Source: Candidatus Woesearchaeota archaeon
GTDB taxonomy: Archaea; Nanobdellota; Nanobdellia; Woesearchaeales; GW2011-AR9
Length of the DNA: 51,849 nt
Direction of reading: 5' to 3'
Assembly (NCBI GenBank): GCA_018655525.1
Contig: JABIJM010000002.1
Location: forward strand, 173,575-225,423
Shown here: one piece after another, positions 15,908 to 32,458 of the stretch
How positions within the stretch are numbered: position 1 is the first letter of the stretch
Layout: every line of letters begins with the position of its first letter
Notes under the pieces: generated by a model
The model's database searches: none
Told to the model about the DNA's origin: nothing
Seen by the model: only the letters and a program-made list of their open reading frames with translations
Made by a program: the position numbers and the translations under genes

Positions 15908-16417
15908 ATGGTAAATAATCAATTTTCAGATTTTATTGATGACGTAGTTTCATCTCTTGTTCTAGGTAAAGAATATCAAGCTAATGTACAGATTGAGAAA
16001 GGAAGGGGACGTAGATATGGAAATGAGATTGATGATTGTACCAGGAGTTACAGTATTCTTTTAGAAAGTAAACCAATTAATACATATGAGGTTACAGGTA
16101 TCACAATAGATCCCAATGTAATTGATGATGACAATAGAGAAGAACTTGCAACATTATTACAAAGTTTAGGAGATGGTGTACGAAGAGCTAAATCTTACGC
16201 TGGTATTAATATTAGCGATTCAGAACGTGGGTACTTCACATTGACTAAAAATCCTAATGAAATAAAAACAGATCTTTCAAGGTTAATGGGAAGAAAATAT
16301 CCTGCTGGTAATACATGTACCAAAGAATTAACAGCTGCAGCAATTGAGGCTTATCCTCAATTTAAAGATGATCCTGTGACTGCATTAACATTTTACACAA
16401 ACGCACATCAAGATTAA
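15908..16417 (+). CDS. Hypothetical protein, 169 residues
   Basis: No family recognised. It is soluble and acidic, starting with an acidic helix (FSDFIDDVVSSLVLG). TTTATATA near 15876-15884 gives a leaderless ATG 15908, divergent from the secreted HExxH gene. Its stop shares TTAA with lhr. Confidence 0.6.
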   Translation: MVNNQFSDFIDDVVSSLVLGKEYQANVQIEKGRGRRYGNEIDDCTRSYSILLESKPINTYEVTGITIDPNVIDDDNREELATLLQSLGDGVRRAKSYAGINISDSERGYFTLTKNPNEIKTDLSRLMGRKYPAGNTCTKELTAAAIEAYPQFKDDPVTALTFYTNAHQD

Positions 16418-19400
16418 ATTCTTTCCAACAAAAATTCCCTCAATCCTTGTGGCCATTCTTTTTTAATTTCTTTTTTATGTTCCTTTAATTCTTTAGTAAC
16501 ACGTGCATTTAAATTTCCATTATCAATTAATTTAATCAATTGTTCTTTAGCATATACGGGAACCTTCTTCAAACTCCAGACTTGCATTTTAAGTTTTTCT
16601 TTAAACATGTCTTTTTTATCATCTGATTCTTTCTTTGCTTCTTCCCAGTATTTCTGATAGGAAAATTCTTCCATTTTTTCTTTGACTAATTTCTTACCAT
16701 GTTTCAATGCAATCCGTGCAAGAACTTGTTGATGCATACGTTTCAAGAATTCTTGTTTGTCTTCAACTTTAATCACATCTGAATAGCCAGCCATGATTAA
16801 TCCAAACGCAAATGGAGAAGGCATTTTTGTATTTTTTTCTACAATGATTGCTGGACCATTAATTACAGAGTCAATAATTTGCTGCGCATGAATGATGTCC
16901 ATTTGATCTTCTAAGACTTCTCTACGTGCTTCTTTTAAAATGGAGAAATTTGGATCTATTCTTTTGACTGCATTAAATAAAATTTTGCTCCCCATATGGG
17001 CCCGCCCTACTGATTTCTTCCGTCCCATATAGCTACGAAGAATCATTAATGATCTTCCTGCACAATGTCTGAATCTACGTGAGAGAACTTCACTTTTATC
17101 AATAGATTCTTCTAGGACTCCACGAAAATCTTGTGTTTTAAGTAATTCAAATGCACGCATGGGATTAAATGTTTTTTCTGCTGAGAGATAGAATCCGTTA
17201 TCGCTGATTCCTACTTCTACATCTCGGTGTTGTGAACGTCCAATTACAAAGGCTAATGAACGAGATAAACAATCATTCACACGACGTCCAAACAATGTTT
17301 GGAAGATAACATAAGTTCTTCCTCTATCTGTGTAGGATTCTACAACTATTTTTTTATCATGAGGGATATAAGAAAAATGAAATTGTTCATAGAAATATTG
17401 ATAGATACTTTCAGCAGCCTTTTCATTGACATATAAATAATCGTCAATAAATTTGATGATGTCCTTCTTAGATTCTTTTGCATGGAATCGTTCATCCATC
17501 AATCTTCGGAATCTGTTAATTTCCATTGCTAAGTCAAATGATAAAGGTAGCATTTCTGAGAACCATGATGGAACAGTTGGTGGTCTGTTTACAGAAGTTG
17601 AAACTTGCGCAGTCATACCACGTGCAAATCTAAACATGTATACATTTCCACCTAATACAAACACATCACCTGGACGCATTCGTTCAAGGAATCCTTCATC
17701 AATGGATCCAACAATTTGTTCTCCAATTTTTACTTTGACATGTGTTTGTTCTGGAATGGTTCCAATGTTTGTCATGTAAATCACACGCGCAAGTTTTCCT
17801 TTCTTTCCAATATCTCCTGTATCTTGGTCGTACCAGATTCGTGCATAAACATGTCGTTCTTCTAATGACACATAATGTCCTGAAAGAAATTTAATTAATT
17901 CAAAGAAGTCATCCCATGTTAATTCATGATAGCAATATGATCCTTTAATTAAATGAAATAATTCGTAAATGTTAATCACACCATTAATCGCGATTCCATA
18001 AATTTGTTGTGCTAAAACATCAAGAGCATTTCGTGGGATTTGGACACGATCAATCTTTTTTTCAATAGCTGACTTTAGTAATAATGAACATTCAATAAGA
18101 TCATCACGATCAAGAACTATGACCCGCCCTTTAACCACACCGTGTAACTGATGTCCTGCACGTCCACAATTATGAGTTATAATATTACCAACAATAAAAT
18201 TATGATCTCCTTCAATTGTTAAATTATATGTTGGTTCTGTAAAAGTAATTTTTTTTATAGATTTTATTTTCCTCCAAGAGATAAATTTTGTATTCTTCGA
18301 CTTTTTAATATGGTGTTGTTTAAATTTATTCACTAAATCTTTAGAATTTTTAGCTTTAGGCCCAAAACAAGGAATTTCATTAAAAAAGGTTTTAATATCA
18401 TTAATTCTTGTAAAAGTCAAATTATAAATATATTTTAATTTAATATTAGGAATTTTCTTTGAAACTTTAGATTTCTCTGTATAAATTGTTGTATAATAAC
18501 CTAAACGTGAACTGATTCTATTAATTTGTTTAATGAATTCATGACTACAACTAAAAATTCTAATTTGAGGAAATTTTTTAGAATAATTCCCATCACCCTC
18601 AAATACGCCTTCAAGAAATCCATGATGTAGTTTATGATCTAATTTAAAAAATAAAGGAGATAATTTTAATGAAAAAGATTTATTTTTAAAAGGAATGCCT
18701 AATGCATGTAAAAGCCATACAAAAACCCTATTTCCCGATTCAATGGAAAATTGATGATCTTTTTTTCTAATAGAAGTATGATAACCAATTTTGTATGTAG
18801 ATAGAACATCTTTATATTTTTTAACTAGTTCTTGATTTTTATTACTAAATTTCACAACAAAATTATACAAATTAAACCTTTTATCAAGAGTTTTCACAAT
18901 ACAACCATCTGATGCAATTAAACCTGCAACCCACATCAATTCAGGAGTTAAATACAAAGGAAGCTCAGACCAAGAATTACCTTTATATTTTAATTTTGAG
19001 AGATAAGAGATGAACTCTTTTTCTTTTCTTTCTCCAATCTTACAAACTTTTAAGAAATCTTTAAGCAATATACTTTTTTTTCTACCATTCTGCCTTCTTT
19101 GGTCAATAAGTTTATTATAAGAAAATGAATATTTTTCCGAGAAAGATTTTAACGATATTTGATATTTATTACAATACTCATCAATGATTTTTGTAAAATA
19201 AGAATTTGCTCCATAAACAAAAATTTTATCTTGGGGTAAAAAAGTATAAATTGGAATTTTCCTAGATTTAAAATGTACTTTACTAAAAACCTCAGCAATT
19301 TGATCATCTTCCTTCAATCTATGAGCTTCCTTCCATCCATCTTTTGTTAAGAATGGATGTTCGGAAGTACATTTTATACTTTCACCACTGCTTGTTTCAA

Positions 19401-20685
19401 TTCTTAGTAAATCTTGATTTTCATTTTTGTAGGTTTTCAAAATTTTTCGTGAAACAAAACCTTCTTTTTCATTAAAAGAAATAACATTGACAGGAAGCTT
19501 CTTCTCAACAATTTGACCAATTGGCAAATATGACCCATCATCTAAAAGAACCTCCTCGTTATAGGGTAAACATCTCTGTAAAAATCGTGAAGCTGATTTT
19601 GGAGATCCTAAACATAATACTAAATCAATAAATCCAATGTCAATTCCTAATTCTAAACTTGTTGAGGAAACAACAACTTTTAAGTTCCCATCACGTAAAT
19701 CTTGTTCTGTCTTGAAACGGTTTTCTTTACTTAAACTTCCGTGATGTGCAGAAATGTTTTCAACATTGTAAAATTTGGGATACATTTCTTTCAAATTATG
19801 AACCACACGTTCAGTTGCAGCTCGTGTGTTTGTAAAAACTAAAGTTGTTTTATGTTTCTGAACTTGTTTGTGAATCAATTCATACATCTTTTTATGTTTC
19901 ATCATATATGAATCTTCAACTAAACTTTTAACAGGAGAAAGAACTTTGAAATCTTGTTGTTTTGTATATTGTACATCTACAATACCGCAATCACGTTCGT
20001 CATCTCCGTTATATCCTACAAGATATCGTGCAATTTCTTCAAGCGGTGCTATGGTTGCTGATAATCCTACTCTACATAATCCTGGAGAAATTCTTTGCAT
20101 TCGTTCAATTGTAAGATTCATATGAACACCACGTTTATTTTCCGCAATAGAATGAATTTCATCTACAATTATCCATTGCGTTTTTGTAAGGTGTTCTTTG
20201 AACTTGGGAGAATTAATCATGATCGCTAAACTTTCCGGTGTTGTGATTAGGATATGTGGAGGTTTCTTCAACATCTTTTGTTTCTGGTACGGCGTTGTAT
20301 CACCTGTTCTAAGACCCACACGAATCCCAAATTCTTTTCCAACGAGTTCTTCCATTTCTTTAAGTGGTTCAAGAAGGTTTACAGAAACGTCAGATGATAA
20401 TGCTTTTAATGGAGAAACGTATATACAATACACTCTGTCTTCTAAAATTTGTTTTTCTGCTGAATCAATAAGTTCATTGAGAACTGAAAGAAAAGCTGTA
20501 AGTGTTTTTCCAGATCCTGTTGGAGATGAAATTAACACATTCTGTCTGCAATGAATTGGATATACTGCAAATAGTTGTGGTGGACTGAATGCTTTGAACT
20601 TAGAGAAAAACCATTTATTTACAAAAGGATGTAATACAGCTTTAATTTGTACAGGTTTATATGGTTCAGTAATATATGATATCAT
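16414..20685 (-). CDS. lhr: Lhr-type superfamily 2 helicase interrupted by an intein
   Basis: The 1423-residue precursor holds an ATP-dependent helicase of the large-helicase-related family, thought to act in DNA repair or replication restart. N-terminal motifs are SSPTGSGKT (Walker A, about residues 53-61), ITTPESLA, VDEIH and GLSATIAP; the second RecA domain has FTNTRAATERV, then SSTSLELGIDIG. Motif VI (QRCGRAGH) is split by a 468-residue intein. After splicing the protein would be 955 residues, the usual Lhr size, with the Lhr winged-helix and C-terminal parts after motif VI. The predicted start has no TATA at the leaderless spacing; a structured segment lies 30-150 bp upstream, so this mRNA may carry a leader. 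The stop shares TTAA with the 15908 gene. Confidence 0.92.
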   Translation of the reverse strand: MISYITEPYKPVQIKAVLHPFVNKWFFSKFKAFSPPQLFAVYPIHCRQNVLISSPTGSGKTLTAFLSVLNELIDSAEKQILEDRVYCIYVSPLKALSSDVSVNLLEPLKEMEELVGKEFGIRVGLRTGDTTPYQKQKMLKKPPHILITTPESLAIMINSPKFKEHLTKTQWIIVDEIHSIAENKRGVHMNLTIERMQRISPGLCRVGLSATIAPLEEIARYLVGYNGDDERDCGIVDVQYTKQQDFKVLSPVKSLVEDSYMMKHKKMYELIHKQVQKHKTTLVFTNTRAATERVVHNLKEMYPKFYNVENISAHHGSLSKENRFKTEQDLRDGNLKVVVSSTSLELGIDIGFIDLVLCLGSPKSASRFLQRCLPYNEEVLLDDGSYLPIGQIVEKKLPVNVISFNEKEGFVSRKILKTYKNENQDLLRIETSSGESIKCTSEHPFLTKDGWKEAHRLKEDDQIAEVFSKVHFKSRKIPIYTFLPQDKIFVYGANSYFTKIIDEYCNKYQISLKSFSEKYSFSYNKLIDQRRQNGRKKSILLKDFLKVCKIGERKEKEFISYLSKLKYKGNSWSELPLYLTPELMWVAGLIASDGCIVKTLDKRFNLYNFVVKFSNKNQELVKKYKDVLSTYKIGYHTSIRKKDHQFSIESGNRVFVWLLHALGIPFKNKSFSLKLSPLFFKLDHKLHHGFLEGVFEGDGNYSKKFPQIRIFSCSHEFIKQINRISSRLGYYTTIYTEKSKVSKKIPNIKLKYIYNLTFTRINDIKTFFNEIPCFGPKAKNSKDLVNKFKQHHIKKSKNTKFISWRKIKSIKKITFTEPTYNLTIEGDHNFIVGNIITHNCGRAGHQLHGVVKGRVIVLDRDDLIECSLLLKSAIEKKIDRVQIPRNALDVLAQQIYGIAINGVINIYELFHLIKGSYCYHELTWDDFFELIKFLSGHYVSLEERHVYARIWYDQDTGDIGKKGKLARVIYMTNIGTIPEQTHVKVKIGEQIVGSIDEGFLERMRPGDVFVLGGNVYMFRFARGMTAQVSTSVNRPPTVPSWFSEMLPLSFDLAMEINRFRRLMDERFHAKESKKDIIKFIDDYLYVNEKAAESIYQYFYEQFHFSYIPHDKKIVVESYTDRGRTYVIFQTLFGRRVNDCLSRSLAFVIGRSQHRDVEVGISDNGFYLSAEKTFNPMRAFELLKTQDFRGVLEESIDKSEVLSRRFRHCAGRSLMILRSYMGRKKSVGRAHMGSKILFNAVKRIDPNFSILKEARREVLEDQMDIIHAQQIIDSVINGPAIIVEKNTKMPSPFAFGLIMAGYSDVIKVEDKQEFLKRMHQQVLARIALKHGKKLVKEKMEEFSYQKYWEEAKKESDDKKDMFKEKLKMQVWSLKKVPVYAKEQLIKLIDNGNLNARVTKELKEHKKEIKKEWPQGLREFLLERI
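18169..19572 (-). mobile_element. Intein with LAGLIDADG homing endonuclease in lhr
   Basis: The intein runs from Cys372 (CLPYNEEVLLDDGSYLP, block A) to Asn839 of the precursor, 468 residues. Block B is CTSEHPFLT. Two LAGLIDADG motifs are visible: WVAGLIASDGC and LEGVFEGDGNY. The C-terminal splice blocks are GDHNFIVGN and ITHN, followed by Cys+1 of the extein. All residues expected for splicing (Cys1, block-B His, penultimate His, terminal Asn, Cys+1) are present, so it should splice and the endonuclease may be active. By eye its DNA is more AT-rich than the flanking extein. Confidence 0.95.
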
Positions 20686-26278: not shown

Positions 26279-26300
26279 TACTGATTGTTTTAGAGTGGTT

Positions 26301-27257
26301 ATGAAACGGAAAATCATTAAATTAGGACAGGCAACGTATGTTGCAAGTTTACCTAGTAAATGGATTAGAGCACATAATCTAGAAAAAGGTGATTATTTAG
26401 ATGTTGAAGAAGAACAAGGAGATTTAACGTTTAGAGTTGAAGGAAGAAAAAGAAATAAGGCAATTACACTTGATATTACAAAATTAGATACAAAATTAGC
26501 AGCATCAGTTCTTGAGACATCCTATATTGTAGGTTATGATCCAATTGAAATTATCCATAATCCTGAAATTAAAGAATATTTATCAAAAAGTAAAGGAAAT
26601 AAACTATCAACCACCGAATTTATAACAACTATTGTTAATGAAAAATTAATTGGTTCTGAAATTATTGAACAATCTGATAAAAGAATAATTATTAAAGATC
26701 TTGGTGGTGGACTTAACGAGGAATCAACCGATAATATCTTTCGAAGAATTTTATTCTTATTAAAAGATATTTCTCAAGAGATCATGGAGGCTTTAACTAA
26801 TAATAACCTTGAGAGAATAAAACATCTCCAAACTAAAGTGAAACTTTCAAAAAAATTGATTTTATATTATTCACGATTATTGAATCAAAGTAAAATATCT
26901 TCAAGTCAATTAAAAATTAAAAATACAATCTTAACAAATATTAATTTTATTAATGGAACTTTTAAGGTATTATTAAGGGATGCATTAACTACAAAAAAAC
27001 CTTATTCTAAAGAGTCAATAAATGTTCTCAGTGGAGTGTACAAACATCTCAATCATCTAGTTGTTCTTTTCCTTAAGTTTGATTTAGATAAAGCTGCAGA
27101 ATTCATTGAAAAAAGAGAAAGTATTATTGCATCAATAAATTCATTTGAACCAAAACCCCAAGATTTAGGAGTATCTTATAGTTTAGGTGCATTAATGGGA
27201 TCTATTTGGTATGCTGCAGATGCATGGATTGCAGAAAAAATTATTGAAAAAAATTAA
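26301..27257 (+). CDS. PhoU-domain regulator with N-terminal AbrB-like domain
   Basis: Residues 1-45 (MKRKIIKLGQATYVASLPSK, HNLEKGDYLDVEEE) form the SpoVT/AbrB-type swapped-hairpin DNA-binding domain. The rest is helical PhoU-like, including the tail LGALMGSIWYAADAWIAEK. This AbrB-PhoU fusion is widespread in archaea and linked to phosphate-responsive regulation. No phosphate transporter is adjacent. The start is ATG 26301, leaderless from the TATA at 26271. The stop shares TTAA with the HAD gene. Confidence 0.85.
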   Translation: MKRKIIKLGQATYVASLPSKWIRAHNLEKGDYLDVEEEQGDLTFRVEGRKRNKAITLDITKLDTKLAASVLETSYIVGYDPIEIIHNPEIKEYLSKSKGNKLSTTEFITTIVNEKLIGSEIIEQSDKRIIIKDLGGGLNEESTDNIFRRILFLLKDISQEIMEALTNNNLERIKHLQTKVKLSKKLILYYSRLLNQSKISSSQLKIKNTILTNINFINGTFKVLLRDALTTKKPYSKESINVLSGVYKHLNHLVVLFLKFDLDKAAEFIEKRESIIASINSFEPKPQDLGVSYSLGALMGSIWYAADAWIAEKIIEKN

Positions 27258-27910
27258 AGTAAATCTAAAAGACTTTTAATATCATTAAGCACGTGATCTT
27301 CTGGAAGAAAGCTTAAATCGTCATTAGGGTCTTGATAACAAGCAAAGGTTTCAATTCCTAATTTATTTGCACCTTGCAATTCATCTAAATCATGTGCACC
27401 AAAAATAACATCTTCTTTAGAATAACCATAAGTTTGAAGGAAATGCTCAAATATTTCTTTTGAAGGTTTTGTGTAACCAACATCTTTTGAAGAAACAATT
27501 CCTGCAATGTATTGATCTAAACCACATGACCTGAAAGCATCCCACACATCTTCAGTTGGTGTGCAACAATCTGTCACACCAAATACAGGAATGTTTCTTT
27601 CTTTAGCTTTTTCAAGTAATTCTGTGATACCATCATTAGCAGTCGTTTCACGATTCCGTGCAAGATTGTAGGCTAAGAAGTCATCACAAATGTCTTCATG
27701 ACCAATTTCTGCAAAAGTGTCACGTATTGCATCATTCCAATTATAACCTTGATCTGTATAAGATCTTTCTTTATGTGGTGCATAAACTGCTACGATTTGT
27801 TCTTCTGGTAGGGTTGTTTTTCCAGATAAGTATGTTAATAATGATCGTCTTGTAAATGCATCTCCTTTAAGCAAAAAATCGTAAATATCAGTAATTATTA
27901 CTTTAGTCAT
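27254..27910 (-). CDS. HAD-superfamily hydrolase
   Basis: 218 residues. The four HAD motifs are present: motif I VIITDIYDFLL, motif II VFGVTD, motif III Lys in VGYTKPSKEIF, and motif IV FGAHDLDELQGA. Motif I has Tyr at the second Asp position (D-x-Y), as in L-2-haloacid dehalogenases, where phosphatases have D-x-D. The cap is helical (C1 type). The ATG overlaps the stop of the giant kinase/S-layer gene as ATGA, so the two are co-translated and probably functionally linked. Confidence 0.8.
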   Translation of the reverse strand: MTKVIITDIYDFLLKGDAFTRRSLLTYLSGKTTLPEEQIVAVYAPHKERSYTDQGYNWNDAIRDTFAEIGHEDICDDFLAYNLARNRETTANDGITELLEKAKERNIPVFGVTDCCTPTEDVWDAFRSCGLDQYIAGIVSSKDVGYTKPSKEIFEHFLQTYGYSKEDVIFGAHDLDELQGANKLGIETFACYQDPNDDLSFLPEDHVLNDIKSLLDLL

Positions 27911-30900
27911 TTTTTCTCCTCTTCACCATAATTCTTACTACCTTGATAAACTTTGTTGGTAACTGTTATCGCGGAAGTGAGTGTAAAATCACATTGATGA
28001 TCATCTTGCATAACTGCAGTAACGGGATATTCACCCGGTTCAGCGGATAAAGGTATTTCAAAAGATCCATTAGGATCCATTCTCCGATACACATTGATAC
28101 CTGGAATATTCACATGAAATTTCTTTCCTGAAAATATTGTCTCATTTTCAGTGTTTCCTAGTTCAACTTTAATTTTTTGTCCAGGATGAACGACATTATT
28201 TTTATTTCCTAGTTTAAAGATATAATCTTTTCCTTCATAAGCTAAACCGCATAAAGCTAGATTTCTTTGACCATAATCATTAGAGTCATCACCCTCTCCA
28301 TGATATTCAGCTATTGGTGTAAATATCTTAAAATCTGTTAATGGTTCATTTTTATTTTGCGCTTTTTTATTTTGAATTGTTAGATGATGTTTCCTTAAAT
28401 CAAAATAAACAGCTAAAACATCTTCTACAAAATTTCTAGAATCATCTCTAGAATACTCTACTCTGCCTGGTTTTGAAGGACTCTCTGGAAGAAAACTCTT
28501 GTACTCAAAGTAATCACTTCCACTTTTACCAGCCTTCTGAGCATTATTTTTTGCATGTTGTATTTCTTGATTCGAGTAAACAAAAGAAGCAAGTGAATCA
28601 ATGAAACCTTCTTTAGTGAGAGATTTTTTAAGAGCAACTTCCCTCAAAGGAGAAAGATAATCAGACCTAATACGTTTATTAAGTTTATGAATTAAACTAA
28701 TAATACCTTTTGTTGCTTCATGGTGAGCTTCACGATCAATGTTTCCTTTTTTATCAAGGTAAGTAAATGGAGATAGCCTTTCTTCATTTTCATTAATTCC
28801 AGAATTCTTTAAAAGACGAAACTTTTGATAATCCGCGGTATTGAAAAAAATCGCCGTAATCAAATCAGGATTATCAAATTTACTTCCTTGAGTATCCTGA
28901 TATAATAAAGATTCAAGTAAAGTTCCAATCTTTTTATGAGAATCATATCCTTCAATGATTTCTAATCTTTTTCTTAAAGTTGTATGATGGTCAGATTCAT
29001 AAGGTCTTAGTAAAGAGATAGTATCAACATCTGCATCTTTAATTTTATCACTAAAATCATTTTCTTCATCATCGGTTAAAATGTGACTGAAAGGTTTTTC
29101 ATCAAATGAATCAATAGATTGATTTTGATTTCCTTCTCTTACAATCACACCTTCACCATCAAATTCGTCACTTCGGTACGCAAGAACTTTACCTGCCATC
29201 TTAACATCTTCCCAACTGTGACCTGATACAACTACCGCAACATTATTACCGTCATTTCCAAATATATCTACCCTGCCTTCACCGTGTAGAGTAAATTCTT
29301 TACAATTTCCAGAATTTGAATAATATTTTTTCATAATGCTATGACTACAAGGTAAATTAATCGCTAAAATATTTTTTCCTTCAATAACATTTAATTTTGA
29401 AGAGCGAGATAGAATATCATATGCATGAACACCTACTTTTTTCCTTTCAGTAACATTACCTTGAGAATCATTGTAATACATATTTGCAAGAATTTCAGTA
29501 GCTAAAACAGTTTGCCGAGCATCCAAATGATCTCCAACTACAACAGTTCCATTAAATTTTCCATCCTTAGCAAAGTAACGAGGATAATTCTTCAAGTTTG
29601 GTTCAGTTGTTTTACTACCTACAAATTCAAGCACCATCGATTCTAATTTCTTTTTGTCTGCTTCCGGATCTGAATTTTTTTCCATTTCTTCCAATTGTCC
29701 TATAGAAGAAAAAAGATTATTAATATTTAAGTCTGGAAACGATTCAGTTACGTGGGGAACCCCTATAAACAACCCAGACAATAAAAATGCTTGCGTTCCA
29801 AGAACACTTAAAGGATTGATAAAATTAGCGCCTTTACTATTTTCTGGAACCGTCATTCTTCGTTTGAGATATTTGTGACCTAAGTAAGAAACCCCTCCCC
29901 AAAGACTAGCAAAAGGAAGAGCATCTAACATAAATTGATAATTATCAGCACTACCTAAAAGTTCTGTTGCAGCTTCTGGATTAAGAAGACCTCCAACAAT
30001 TGCTAAAGCACTTGCACCTGCTACGGCAGCACCAACTTTTGAAACAGCATTATGAAGCCAATCAGTTATTCCTTTTGAGGTTATAGGTAAATTGTAATTT
30101 TCTAATTTAGGAGTTTCCTCAACAACAGCACCATTTCCTGAATTCGCGATTTCTTCTAATGATCGTCTCATTTCTCCTAAAGTCGCAATAGATGAACCAA
30201 CACTTGTTTCTAATCTTTCTGGTAGATTTACTTCAGTAAAAAAATCACCTAAGATTTCTGTGTTATAATGTCTTACTAATCCTGCTAATTCTGGTGGAGA
30301 ATTATTTAATGAAAGAGTAAAATACTGATTTCTAAGTTTTGTTGATACATTATCCACTTTTTTTGGAGCAGTAACGTGATGTCCATCATCATTACTTGCA
30401 CCAGGAGTTTCTTTCAACATTTGAGTAAGAGTTCCACGTAATTTTTCTAATCTTACTTCCCTTTCCAACTTCAAAGTTGGGTTTGAGTTTTGTAATTCAA
30501 TATCTCTTTCTGCATCTTCAAGAAACAACCCAGTCACATAATCTACAGCAGCTTTCTGTTTTCTTTCTGCTTCAATAACTTCAGGTCCAAGAACTGAATC
30601 ATCTGAATCTAAACCGGCTTTCTTTCTTAGACGGGATATTGGTTCTTCAAATGTATCTGCAAGATCTTTTGTCTCTTTCACAGGTGACCATAACCAAGAA
30701 CATTTTTCAAATCCTTTTGCTACTCTCGCTAAATCATATCCTTCTGAAAAAGATTGCCATGTAATATCACCTGAATCTAATCCTTTTCTTCTTGAATATT
30801 CTTTATAAAATTTGTAAACATCTTTTAGAACTTCTTCTTTACTTGTTTCAGAAATTCCTAATGTTTCTAAGAAATTAAAACTGTCAAACTGAATTGGACC

Positions 30901-32034
30901 ATGACGAAATAAATAATCATGTAATAAAGTGTGGTAAGGTAGTCCTTGATCTTTACTTTCTGGGTAAAGTTTTTTTTCATGATCAATAAGAACATTGTCA
31001 AATTTCAAGTCGCCATGTAATACATGGTGATCTAATCCCATAATTTGTGTTGCAACGGTTGTTCTATAAGTATCACATAATTCACTAACTAAACCTTGAT
31101 TTTTTAGGAAGGATTCTTCTGCTTGATAAACACCAGCTCTAAAATCATTTTCTACATAACTAATTCCTTGGCTTGAAAGATAAGAACGTAAAACAAACTT
31201 CTTGAAATAATCGTTTGTCAATTTATCTAAACCAAGTTTTTCTTTTTCAGCTGTATCAATAACAGGATTAAAATTAGCAGATTGAAGAGCTGTATAATTT
31301 TGAGGATTCATTTGAAAATCTGTAACGTCTAAACTAATACGTGCAGATTTTCTTAAGACGTTAATCGCTAATGTTTTTTTCTGTACTTCATTCATGTCTC
31401 CAACATCTAATTCTGTATATTCTGGAGATGAAATTCTATCAACTGAAGGAAATGTAAATACAACATCTGCAGAATAATTTTTTGAAAGATGTCCCTGAGC
31501 TGCTGCTTGTTCTAATGACATTCCGGATTGGTTTGTTTTTGTAAAAGTCGGTAACGTTTTTCCACCAGGTAGTAAAATATCTGTTTTAAGAATAAGTCCA
31601 CCACTTTCAGTTGTCATACATGTACGATCAATTGGAGATTCTAATAATGGAAAAATAGTTTTATCTTGAAATTCTCCCATATCTTTTTGAAAACGGGGTA
31701 CTTCGGTATTTAATTGATGTAATTCATTTCTAGAAAGTGTATGTTTAAATCTATCAACAGTTGTGCCAATTTGATGCATAACCATCTGTTGATAAAAATC
31801 TTCAAAATCAGAAAATGAGGGAAATGAAGCCATGTTAGGTCTTCGTTCAGCTACATCTTCTTGAGTTGTACCATATTTTTCTCCATCAGCACCACGCCAT
31901 AAAACTGCTTTATCAATTTCAAAAGATCTAGCATGAGTATAAAAATCTGGATCAATATCACCCTCTCTACAAAGTTCTCCTAAAAAGAGCAATTTCTCTT
32001 CCAATGTACCTTCAAATGTATCTTTTGTTGTCAT
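27907..32034 (-). CDS. Receptor-like giant: APH-type kinase domain, three TM segments, S-layer-like exterior
   Basis: 1375 residues. Residues ~150-480 contain an aminoglycoside-phosphotransferase-like kinase core: catalytic loop VLHGDLKFDNVLID (H340, D342, N347) followed by GPIQFDSFNF where the metal-binding Asp is expected. A helical linker follows. Three hydrophobic segments lie at about residues 662-684, 697-718 and 740-760. After them, residues ~815-970 match the archaeal S-layer domain pattern: TVVVGDHLDARQTVLATEIL, LPCSHSIMKKYYSNSGNC and NVAVVVSGHSWEDVKMAGKVL. A helical region is followed by a C-terminal Ig-like beta domain (~1255-1360, FEIPLSAEPGEYPVTAVM). An odd number of spans puts the kinase inside and the S-layer/Ig part outside. 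It sits between a small protein gene and a HAD hydrolase gene in an overlapping operon. The ligand and the kinase substrate are unknown. Confidence 0.8.
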   Translation of the reverse strand: MTTKDTFEGTLEEKLLFLGELCREGDIDPDFYTHARSFEIDKAVLWRGADGEKYGTTQEDVAERRPNMASFPSFSDFEDFYQQMVMHQIGTTVDRFKHTLSRNELHQLNTEVPRFQKDMGEFQDKTIFPLLESPIDRTCMTTESGGLILKTDILLPGGKTLPTFTKTNQSGMSLEQAAAQGHLSKNYSADVVFTFPSVDRISSPEYTELDVGDMNEVQKKTLAINVLRKSARISLDVTDFQMNPQNYTALQSANFNPVIDTAEKEKLGLDKLTNDYFKKFVLRSYLSSQGISYVENDFRAGVYQAEESFLKNQGLVSELCDTYRTTVATQIMGLDHHVLHGDLKFDNVLIDHEKKLYPESKDQGLPYHTLLHDYLFRHGPIQFDSFNFLETLGISETSKEEVLKDVYKFYKEYSRRKGLDSGDITWQSFSEGYDLARVAKGFEKCSWLWSPVKETKDLADTFEEPISRLRKKAGLDSDDSVLGPEVIEAERKQKAAVDYVTGLFLEDAERDIELQNSNPTLKLEREVRLEKLRGTLTQMLKETPGASNDDGHHVTAPKKVDNVSTKLRNQYFTLSLNNSPPELAGLVRHYNTEILGDFFTEVNLPERLETSVGSSIATLGEMRRSLEEIANSGNGAVVEETPKLENYNLPITSKGITDWLHNAVSKVGAAVAGASALAIVGGLLNPEAATELLGSADNYQFMLDALPFASLWGGVSYLGHKYLKRRMTVPENSKGANFINPLSVLGTQAFLLSGLFIGVPHVTESFPDLNINNLFSSIGQLEEMEKNSDPEADKKKLESMVLEFVGSKTTEPNLKNYPRYFAKDGKFNGTVVVGDHLDARQTVLATEILANMYYNDSQGNVTERKKVGVHAYDILSRSSKLNVIEGKNILAINLPCSHSIMKKYYSNSGNCKEFTLHGEGRVDIFGNDGNNVAVVVSGHSWEDVKMAGKVLAYRSDEFDGEGVIVREGNQNQSIDSFDEKPFSHILTDDEENDFSDKIKDADVDTISLLRPYESDHHTTLRKRLEIIEGYDSHKKIGTLLESLLYQDTQGSKFDNPDLITAIFFNTADYQKFRLLKNSGINENEERLSPFTYLDKKGNIDREAHHEATKGIISLIHKLNKRIRSDYLSPLREVALKKSLTKEGFIDSLASFVYSNQEIQHAKNNAQKAGKSGSDYFEYKSFLPESPSKPGRVEYSRDDSRNFVEDVLAVYFDLRKHHLTIQNKKAQNKNEPLTDFKIFTPIAEYHGEGDDSNDYGQRNLALCGLAYEGKDYIFKLGNKNNVVHPGQKIKVELGNTENETIFSGKKFHVNIPGINVYRRMDPNGSFEIPLSAEPGEYPVTAVMQDDHQCDFTLTSAITVTNKVYQGSKNYGEEEKK

Positions 32035-32458
32035 CTTTTAATAAGGGAAACTTTTCCCCGTTTGGTGTGATTACATAAGGTTTTACAATTCTTGAACCAC
32101 TTGCGGTCACGCAATCATAAACTTCTTCTTCAATGATTGGCAAAAATGCCACGTCACCTAATAAAGGAGGCATTATTTTGTGAAGTGTACGCATAGTTTT
32201 CCTTGAGGAATTTGTTAAATTTCCTTCTAATTCCATTGACCCTAACCAATCTAAGACGCTTTCGGCATACCATTTGAGATAGCCATCCTTTGAATCAAAG
32301 CTTTGCATGTAGGGGAAATCGTTACTCACTTCACCCATTACAATTTGTTCTTTCTGCCTTGTGTAATGCTTCAATTGATCTACGTAATCTCTACTTAAAC
32401 CGTAATATTTAGGTAAATCATCTATTTTACCCAATATTACGTCTAATTTGCTTGCCAT
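32012..32458 (-). CDS. Hypothetical protein heading the kinase operon
   Basis: 148 residues, soluble, mostly helical with Tyr/Asp-rich segments (YYGLSRDYVDQLKHYTRQ). No family recognised. Its 3' end overlaps the giant kinase gene by 23 nt, so it is certainly co-transcribed and may be a regulator or partner of the kinase domain. The expected TATA position holds only a weak TAAATAG overlapped by a perfect palindrome. Confidence 0.65.
   Translation of the reverse strand: MASKLDVILGKIDDLPKYYGLSRDYVDQLKHYTRQKEQIVMGEVSNDFPYMQSFDSKDGYLKWYAESVLDWLGSMELEGNLTNSSRKTMRTLHKIMPPLLGDVAFLPIIEEEVYDCVTASGSRIVKPYVITPNGEKFPLLKDDNKRYI

Follow-up and report, generated by a model that had tools for sequence, protein, structure and literature searches.

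A 51,849-nucleotide stretch of a Candidatus Woesearchaeota genome (contig JABIJM010000002.1, positions 173,575 to 225,423; hereafter the window) carries on its minus strand a gene for a 1375-residue protein in which a divergent kinase-like domain is joined, through predicted membrane spans, to an ectodomain homologous to the genome's own surface-layer (S-layer) protein. We propose that this protein is a transmembrane kinase of the APH fold, one of a group with exchangeable ectodomains and here docked in the S-layer, and that it signals to an AbrB-PhoU regulator encoded convergently two genes away; the case for this proposal and the case against it are, in our judgement, about evenly balanced. 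The window also holds archaeal 23S and 16S rRNA genes, and the host genome (0.96 Mb) is 94% complete. An earlier note on this DNA had recognized the kinase-like domain, the spans, the S-layer-type ectodomain and the archaeal (Woesearchaeota/DPANN) setting, all of which are supported, and had cast a neighbouring HAD protein as a possible enzyme for reversing the kinase, which is not.

The Locus

The genes concerned are:

32458-32012, minus strand: 148-residue protein (open reading frame (ORF) list)
32034-27907, minus strand: 1375-residue transmembrane kinase/S-layer fusion (ORF list, family and profile searches)
27910-27254, minus strand: 218-residue HAD-superfamily protein with a non-canonical active site (Pfam, motif alignment)
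26295-27257, plus strand: AbrB-like DNA-binding and PhoU-like regulator (family profile)

The three minus-strand genes overlap, as had been described, the first pair by 23 nucleotides and the second by 4 (ATGA). The regulator gene, which was missing from the earlier inventory and is the most informative neighbour, is convergent with the HAD gene, their 3' ends overlapping by 4 nucleotides. G+C content is even along the locus (0.325 in the kinase half of the fusion, 0.328 in the ectodomain half, 0.332 in the HAD gene). A kinase, membrane span and ectodomain in a single ORF, followed with a 4-nucleotide overlap by a HAD gene, are also present in two other genomes (G030 and G031), which makes a chimeric or mis-joined frame, a danger raised at the outset, unlikely; the fusion appears genuine.

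Architecture of the 1375-Residue Protein

Its parts, and the protein related to its N-terminus, map as follows:

30685..31647, minus strand: APH/protein-kinase-like domain, residues ~130-450 (profile of related kinases)
30994..31017, minus strand: catalytic loop HGDLKFDN, residues 340-347 with H340, D342 and N347 (profile alignment)
29977..30048, minus strand: membrane span 1, residues 663-686 (hydropathy up to 1.76)
29887..29943, minus strand: weak membrane span 2, residues ~698-716 (hydropathy 1.07)
29749..29820, minus strand: membrane span 3, residues 739-762 (hydropathy 1.62)
29125..29604, minus strand: S-layer-type outer domain, residues 811-970 (homology to the own S-layer protein)
28270..29082, minus strand: helical ectodomain region of no known family (no Pfam match above cut-off)
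28006..28260, minus strand: C-terminal beta-rich region, residues ~1259-1343, possibly Ig-like (predicted strands)
32012..32458, minus strand: 148-residue truncated homologue of kinase residues ~65-170 (local alignment)

Homology identifies residues ~130-450 as a divergent APH/protein-kinase-like domain, a call that follows from a profile match and from the retention of motif residues. The profile, built from 12 kinases adjoining AbrB-PhoU genes with the window protein excluded, matches residues 309-420 with an expectation value (E) of 1.5e-6 (24.2 bits, among 883 ORFs), inside the 150-480 interval where a kinase fold had been expected, and the top score of 500 shuffles is 3.4 bits. One seed of the 12 (G021a) had been trimmed at a wrong position, an error that could only dilute the profile. 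The alignment brings the HGD, the Asn and the metal-binding Asp of the window protein into register, placing the last at D373 (in LLHDY), 26 residues past N347; the motif's Asp, Asn and Asp are unchanged across eight related kinases, and their conservation suggests that the domain is catalytically active. K166 and E175 are, by position only, candidates for the beta-3 Lys and the alpha-C Glu. No close relative of the whole protein or of the kinase region turned up in scans of viral contigs, genome contigs and phages, and a single-sequence search of 353 genomes of the order and 378 of the class with the kinase region found no genuine homologue, a match in a ribosomal-protein operon (G006) being spurious. 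A phmmer match of residues 528-613 to 2p62 (E 0.57) was discarded.

Two of the three membrane spans are clear and the middle one is weak; five positive charges (HKYLKRR) lie just after it. The charges flanking the spans fit the positive-inside rule for an N-in/C-out protein, and four relatives have a single clear span behind a mostly basic stretch. In this predicted topology the kinase would be cytosolic and the S-layer domain would lie outside. Were only two spans present, the S-layer domain would be cytosolic, an arrangement that is disfavoured, though not disproven, by its conserved Cys pair, by the outside position expected of homologous domains and by the single-span relatives.

Residues 811-970, where an S-layer fold had been expected at 815-970, are homologous, on the strength of an alignment that takes in both ends of its partner, to the genome's own S-layer protein (L004:5490-8063; E 1.4e-11). 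The latter matches Pfam S_layer_C (PF05124) at 6.8e-11; the window segment itself stays under the cut-off of that model (E 0.064, 13.3 bits against 23.9). The fusion thus shares with the archaeal S-layer outer domain the two conserved halves and a Cys pair (C896/C911), and differs from the own S-layer protein in that the halves directly adjoin, with none of the long insert that separates them there, and stand behind a kinase predicted to be cytosolic. Several further surface proteins of the family also have contiguous copies (E 8e-21 to 1e-8 against residues 811-970), and many of these proteins start with a signal-peptide-like or lipoprotein-like sequence. The C-terminal Ig-like domain claimed earlier is weakly supported, by a low-confidence run of seven predicted strands with a predicted local distance difference test score (pLDDT) of up to 61. 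The helical ectodomain region has no homologue among 345 genomes of the order, and the C-terminal region searched by itself has none either. Degenerate transglutaminase and lysozyme-like identities for the ectodomain, considered by eye, have no Pfam support.

The AbrB-PhoU Regulator and Its Adjoining Kinases

In Pyrococcus furiosus the PhoU family ranks among the larger families of transcription factors (PMC6316755). An AbrB/MazE-type domain is found in 38 of 38 members of the family to which the window regulator belongs (E <= 0.01), the window copy scoring slightly under the cut-off (E 1.1e-4, 22.5 bits against 24.7). PhoU is detected in 16 of the 38 (up to 7.5e-11) and not in the window copy itself; the family profile matches solved PhoU structures at 7e-5.

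The order of membrane kinase, HAD gene and convergent AbrB-PhoU gene is kept in G030 and G031, both Woesearchaeota of the same family. Their kinases (1065 and 1081 residues), directly ahead of the HAD orthologue, have clear Pfam APH matches (3.7e-17 and 2.3e-15), one membrane span, and ectodomains of about 550 residues with no detectable S-layer domain, unrelated to that of the window protein; the regulators are 44% identical to the window copy and hold the same convergent position. The G030 kinase sequence found no match among solved structures. Used as an order-wide query, it recovered two more membrane kinases outside the family, G084 (792 residues) and G326 (972 residues), both convergent with an AbrB-PhoU gene. 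Between the G084 kinase and its AbrB-PhoU gene lies a 323-residue membrane protein (L085:5963-6934), lysozyme-like by eye and without Pfam support.

The surroundings of 79 AbrB-PhoU genes show that kinases gather on one side. Among nearest downstream neighbours Pfam APH is found in 14 of 71 and Pkinase in 8 of 71 (the two may overlap); among nearest upstream neighbours the figures are 0 and 1 of 73. Local kinase profiles give 28 of 71 loci downstream and 1 of 75 upstream, a count that is partly circular because the profiles were seeded from downstream genes, and a kinase motif, drawn up after the downstream kinases had been seen, occurs in 25 of 88 downstream and 2 of 63 upstream proteins of at least 250 residues (Fisher p 3e-5). 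Several loci are orthologous, so that none of these counts is made of independent events. The partners are of several kinds: some are soluble APH kinases on the same strand, and the convergent ones are either eukaryote-like kinases or membrane APH kinases. For each of the three AbrB-PhoU genes identified in the own genome, a kinase-like gene lies no more than two genes downstream, that on contig C5 being a degenerate kinase as judged by eye.

Some of these loci deserve separate mention. The C5 neighbour (L097:6003-7124, G000:C5) is a degenerate APH-like protein of 373 residues, and another own-genome downstream neighbour (L144:7062-8447, G000:C23) is an APH-like protein of 461 residues with HGDNRVHHL. 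A 9-kb stretch in G033 (L093, contig C41) combines an AbrB-PhoU gene with genes for three eukaryote-like kinases and for an AAA ATPase; in G014 (L094, contig C6) two neighbouring eukaryote-like kinases have nearly identical C-terminal parts and different N-terminal regions.

Proposed Mechanism

A cytosol-facing kinase of the APH branch would carry, on the far side of the membrane, the conserved outer domain known from the S-layer protein of the same cell. The receptor is probably seated in or beneath the S-layer by its ectodomain, which would sense the state of that layer or a ligand, and the kinase probably relays the signal, by phosphorylation, to the convergently encoded AbrB-PhoU regulator. 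The non-canonical HAD protein would be a conserved accessory, and the 148-residue paralogue may be a regulator or a relic.

Several observations weigh against this mechanism. Pfam models of the HGDLKFDN segment stay below call level (E 0.08-0.2), and segment-wise structure prediction, which the earlier note had asked for, yielded no usable fold (pLDDT 34-35). The S-layer/kinase fusion is seen in one genome only; a search for it and for the gene order recovered just the latter, kinase with neighbours, in two further genomes. The locus is absent from two other genomes of the genus (76-80% complete), convergent genes are not co-transcribed, and for over half of the AbrB-PhoU genes no adjoining kinase is detectable. 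Finally, enzymes of the APH fold often phosphorylate small molecules.

The last point leads to the strongest competing explanation, which we nonetheless consider unlikely: the substrate of the APH domain may be a metabolite, a sugar or a lipid headgroup, phosphorylated at the membrane's inner face, e.g., in building or modifying the envelope, with the S-layer domain a mere anchor and the AbrB-PhoU neighbour controlling the same metabolic route. The models matched by the related kinases (APH, choline-kinase and EcKL) do mostly describe small-molecule kinases. However, other AbrB-PhoU genes (in G033, G014 and G044) have a eukaryote-like Ser/Thr protein kinase at the corresponding place, which argues for protein kinase activity as the shared property, and the ectodomain differs wholly between relatives, as would be expected of receptors.

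Less probable still is that adjacency to AbrB-PhoU genes is a genomic habit with no link in a pathway, families that have multiplied coming to lie side by side by chance or in mobile stretches. Both families are multi-copy in these genomes, and several loci are orthologous, which leaves the counts non-independent; against this explanation stand the strong downstream-over-upstream bias, the presence of different kinase groups on the same side, and the kinase-first search, which gave the same pairing in other families. That the domain is a dead kinase fold, a cytosolic scaffold tying the S-layer to the membrane, would fit its very divergent sequence, the 25 residues that separate N347 from D373 (roughly double the usual distance) and the degenerate look of some other AbrB-PhoU neighbours (L097, L139, L153), yet D342, N347 and D373 are kept and K166 and E175 are available by position, and we hold this to be the least probable of the three.

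A kinase relaying signals from the S-layer may also be one case of something broader. We suggest, with less conviction than for the window protein itself, a widespread Woesearchaeota module in which diverse kinases act on an adjoining AbrB-PhoU regulator, by a logic that would resemble that of two-component systems; its proposed kinases, APH-like or eukaryote-like among them, may be soluble or may span the membrane and have swappable ectodomains, and the window version would read the S-layer.

The HAD Protein and the 148-Residue Protein

The 218-residue protein belongs, as had been stated, to the HAD superfamily (Pfam HAD_2, 5.9e-12); matches to NCBIfam YjjG, HAD type II and others all fall below cut-off. 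Its orthologues in G030 and G031 are 38-39% identical (E ~1e-49). With the superfamily (Pfam PF13419/PF00702) it shares the family match, the nucleophile D8, T113 of motif II and K148 of motif III. It differs in motif I, which reads D8-I-Y10 (D-A-F in both orthologues) instead of DxD and so lacks the second Asp, and in motif IV, usually GDSxND-like, which reads AHDLDE with H173 at the Asp position (GHSYDE and GHSHDE in the orthologues). The window protein and its two orthologues have thus all lost the acid/base Asp and a metal-binding Asp, which argues against a canonical Mg-dependent phosphatase and leaves a kinase-reversing role unsupported. A dehalogenase-like or binding role is possible for such a motif pattern.

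The small protein ahead of the kinase does overlap it and is not the unrelated partner it had been taken for: the alignment marks it as a truncated paralogue of the N-terminal part of the kinase (29% identity; local score 74, against 37 +/- 4.3 and a maximum of 55 for 300 shuffles). It covers the N-terminal helices and first N-lobe strands and stops near the position of the beta-3 Lys. The other 48 genomes of the family have no homologue, and G030 and G031 have no such small gene ahead of the kinase.

Other Observations

The defence and phage databases PADLOC and PHROGs gave no match beyond HAD; readings of the locus as a defence system or as phage were dropped, with no match at all for either. 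Elsewhere in the window (16414-20685, minus strand) a 1423-residue Lhr-type helicase is split by an intein (Pfam Intein_splicing, 380-839) with a LAGLIDADG endonuclease domain (LAGLIDADG_3, 689-771). On contig C10 of the own genome (L004:2179-3363), a HemK-like methyltransferase and a kinase-like region, recognized by eye, share one ORF.

Implications and Comparison with Known Systems

Little is known of how DPANN archaea sense surfaces and hosts. A kinase with the cell's own S-layer domain in its ectodomain would link the cytosol with the cell's coat, and the recurrence of AbrB-PhoU regulators beside kinases in related genomes suggests an undescribed way of reporting surface events. The pairing yields testable predictions of kinase targets in a lineage that has many regulators and few known circuits. 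Among the open-licence papers searched, no title or abstract describes the kinase/AbrB-PhoU pairing or a Woesearchaeota S-layer/kinase fusion; if functional, the pairing would be an archaeal signalling module without a description found there.

The individual parts have known counterparts. The window regulator resembles AbrB-PhoU-type archaeal regulators in belonging to a family that has both domains. The kinase shares with the APH family (Pfam PF01636) the HGDxxxxN catalytic loop and the later metal-binding Asp, and differs from it in its fusion to membrane spans and a large ectodomain and in lying below Pfam detection. The closest likeness in overall design is to bacterial receptor Ser/Thr kinases, e.g., PknB, in which an N-terminal cytosolic kinase is followed by a span and a C-terminal ectodomain that reads the cell wall. 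The window protein has the same order of parts, with three predicted spans, an APH-like HGD loop instead of the Hanks-type HRD of PknB and, in place of PASTA repeats, to which it has no Pfam match, an S-layer domain.

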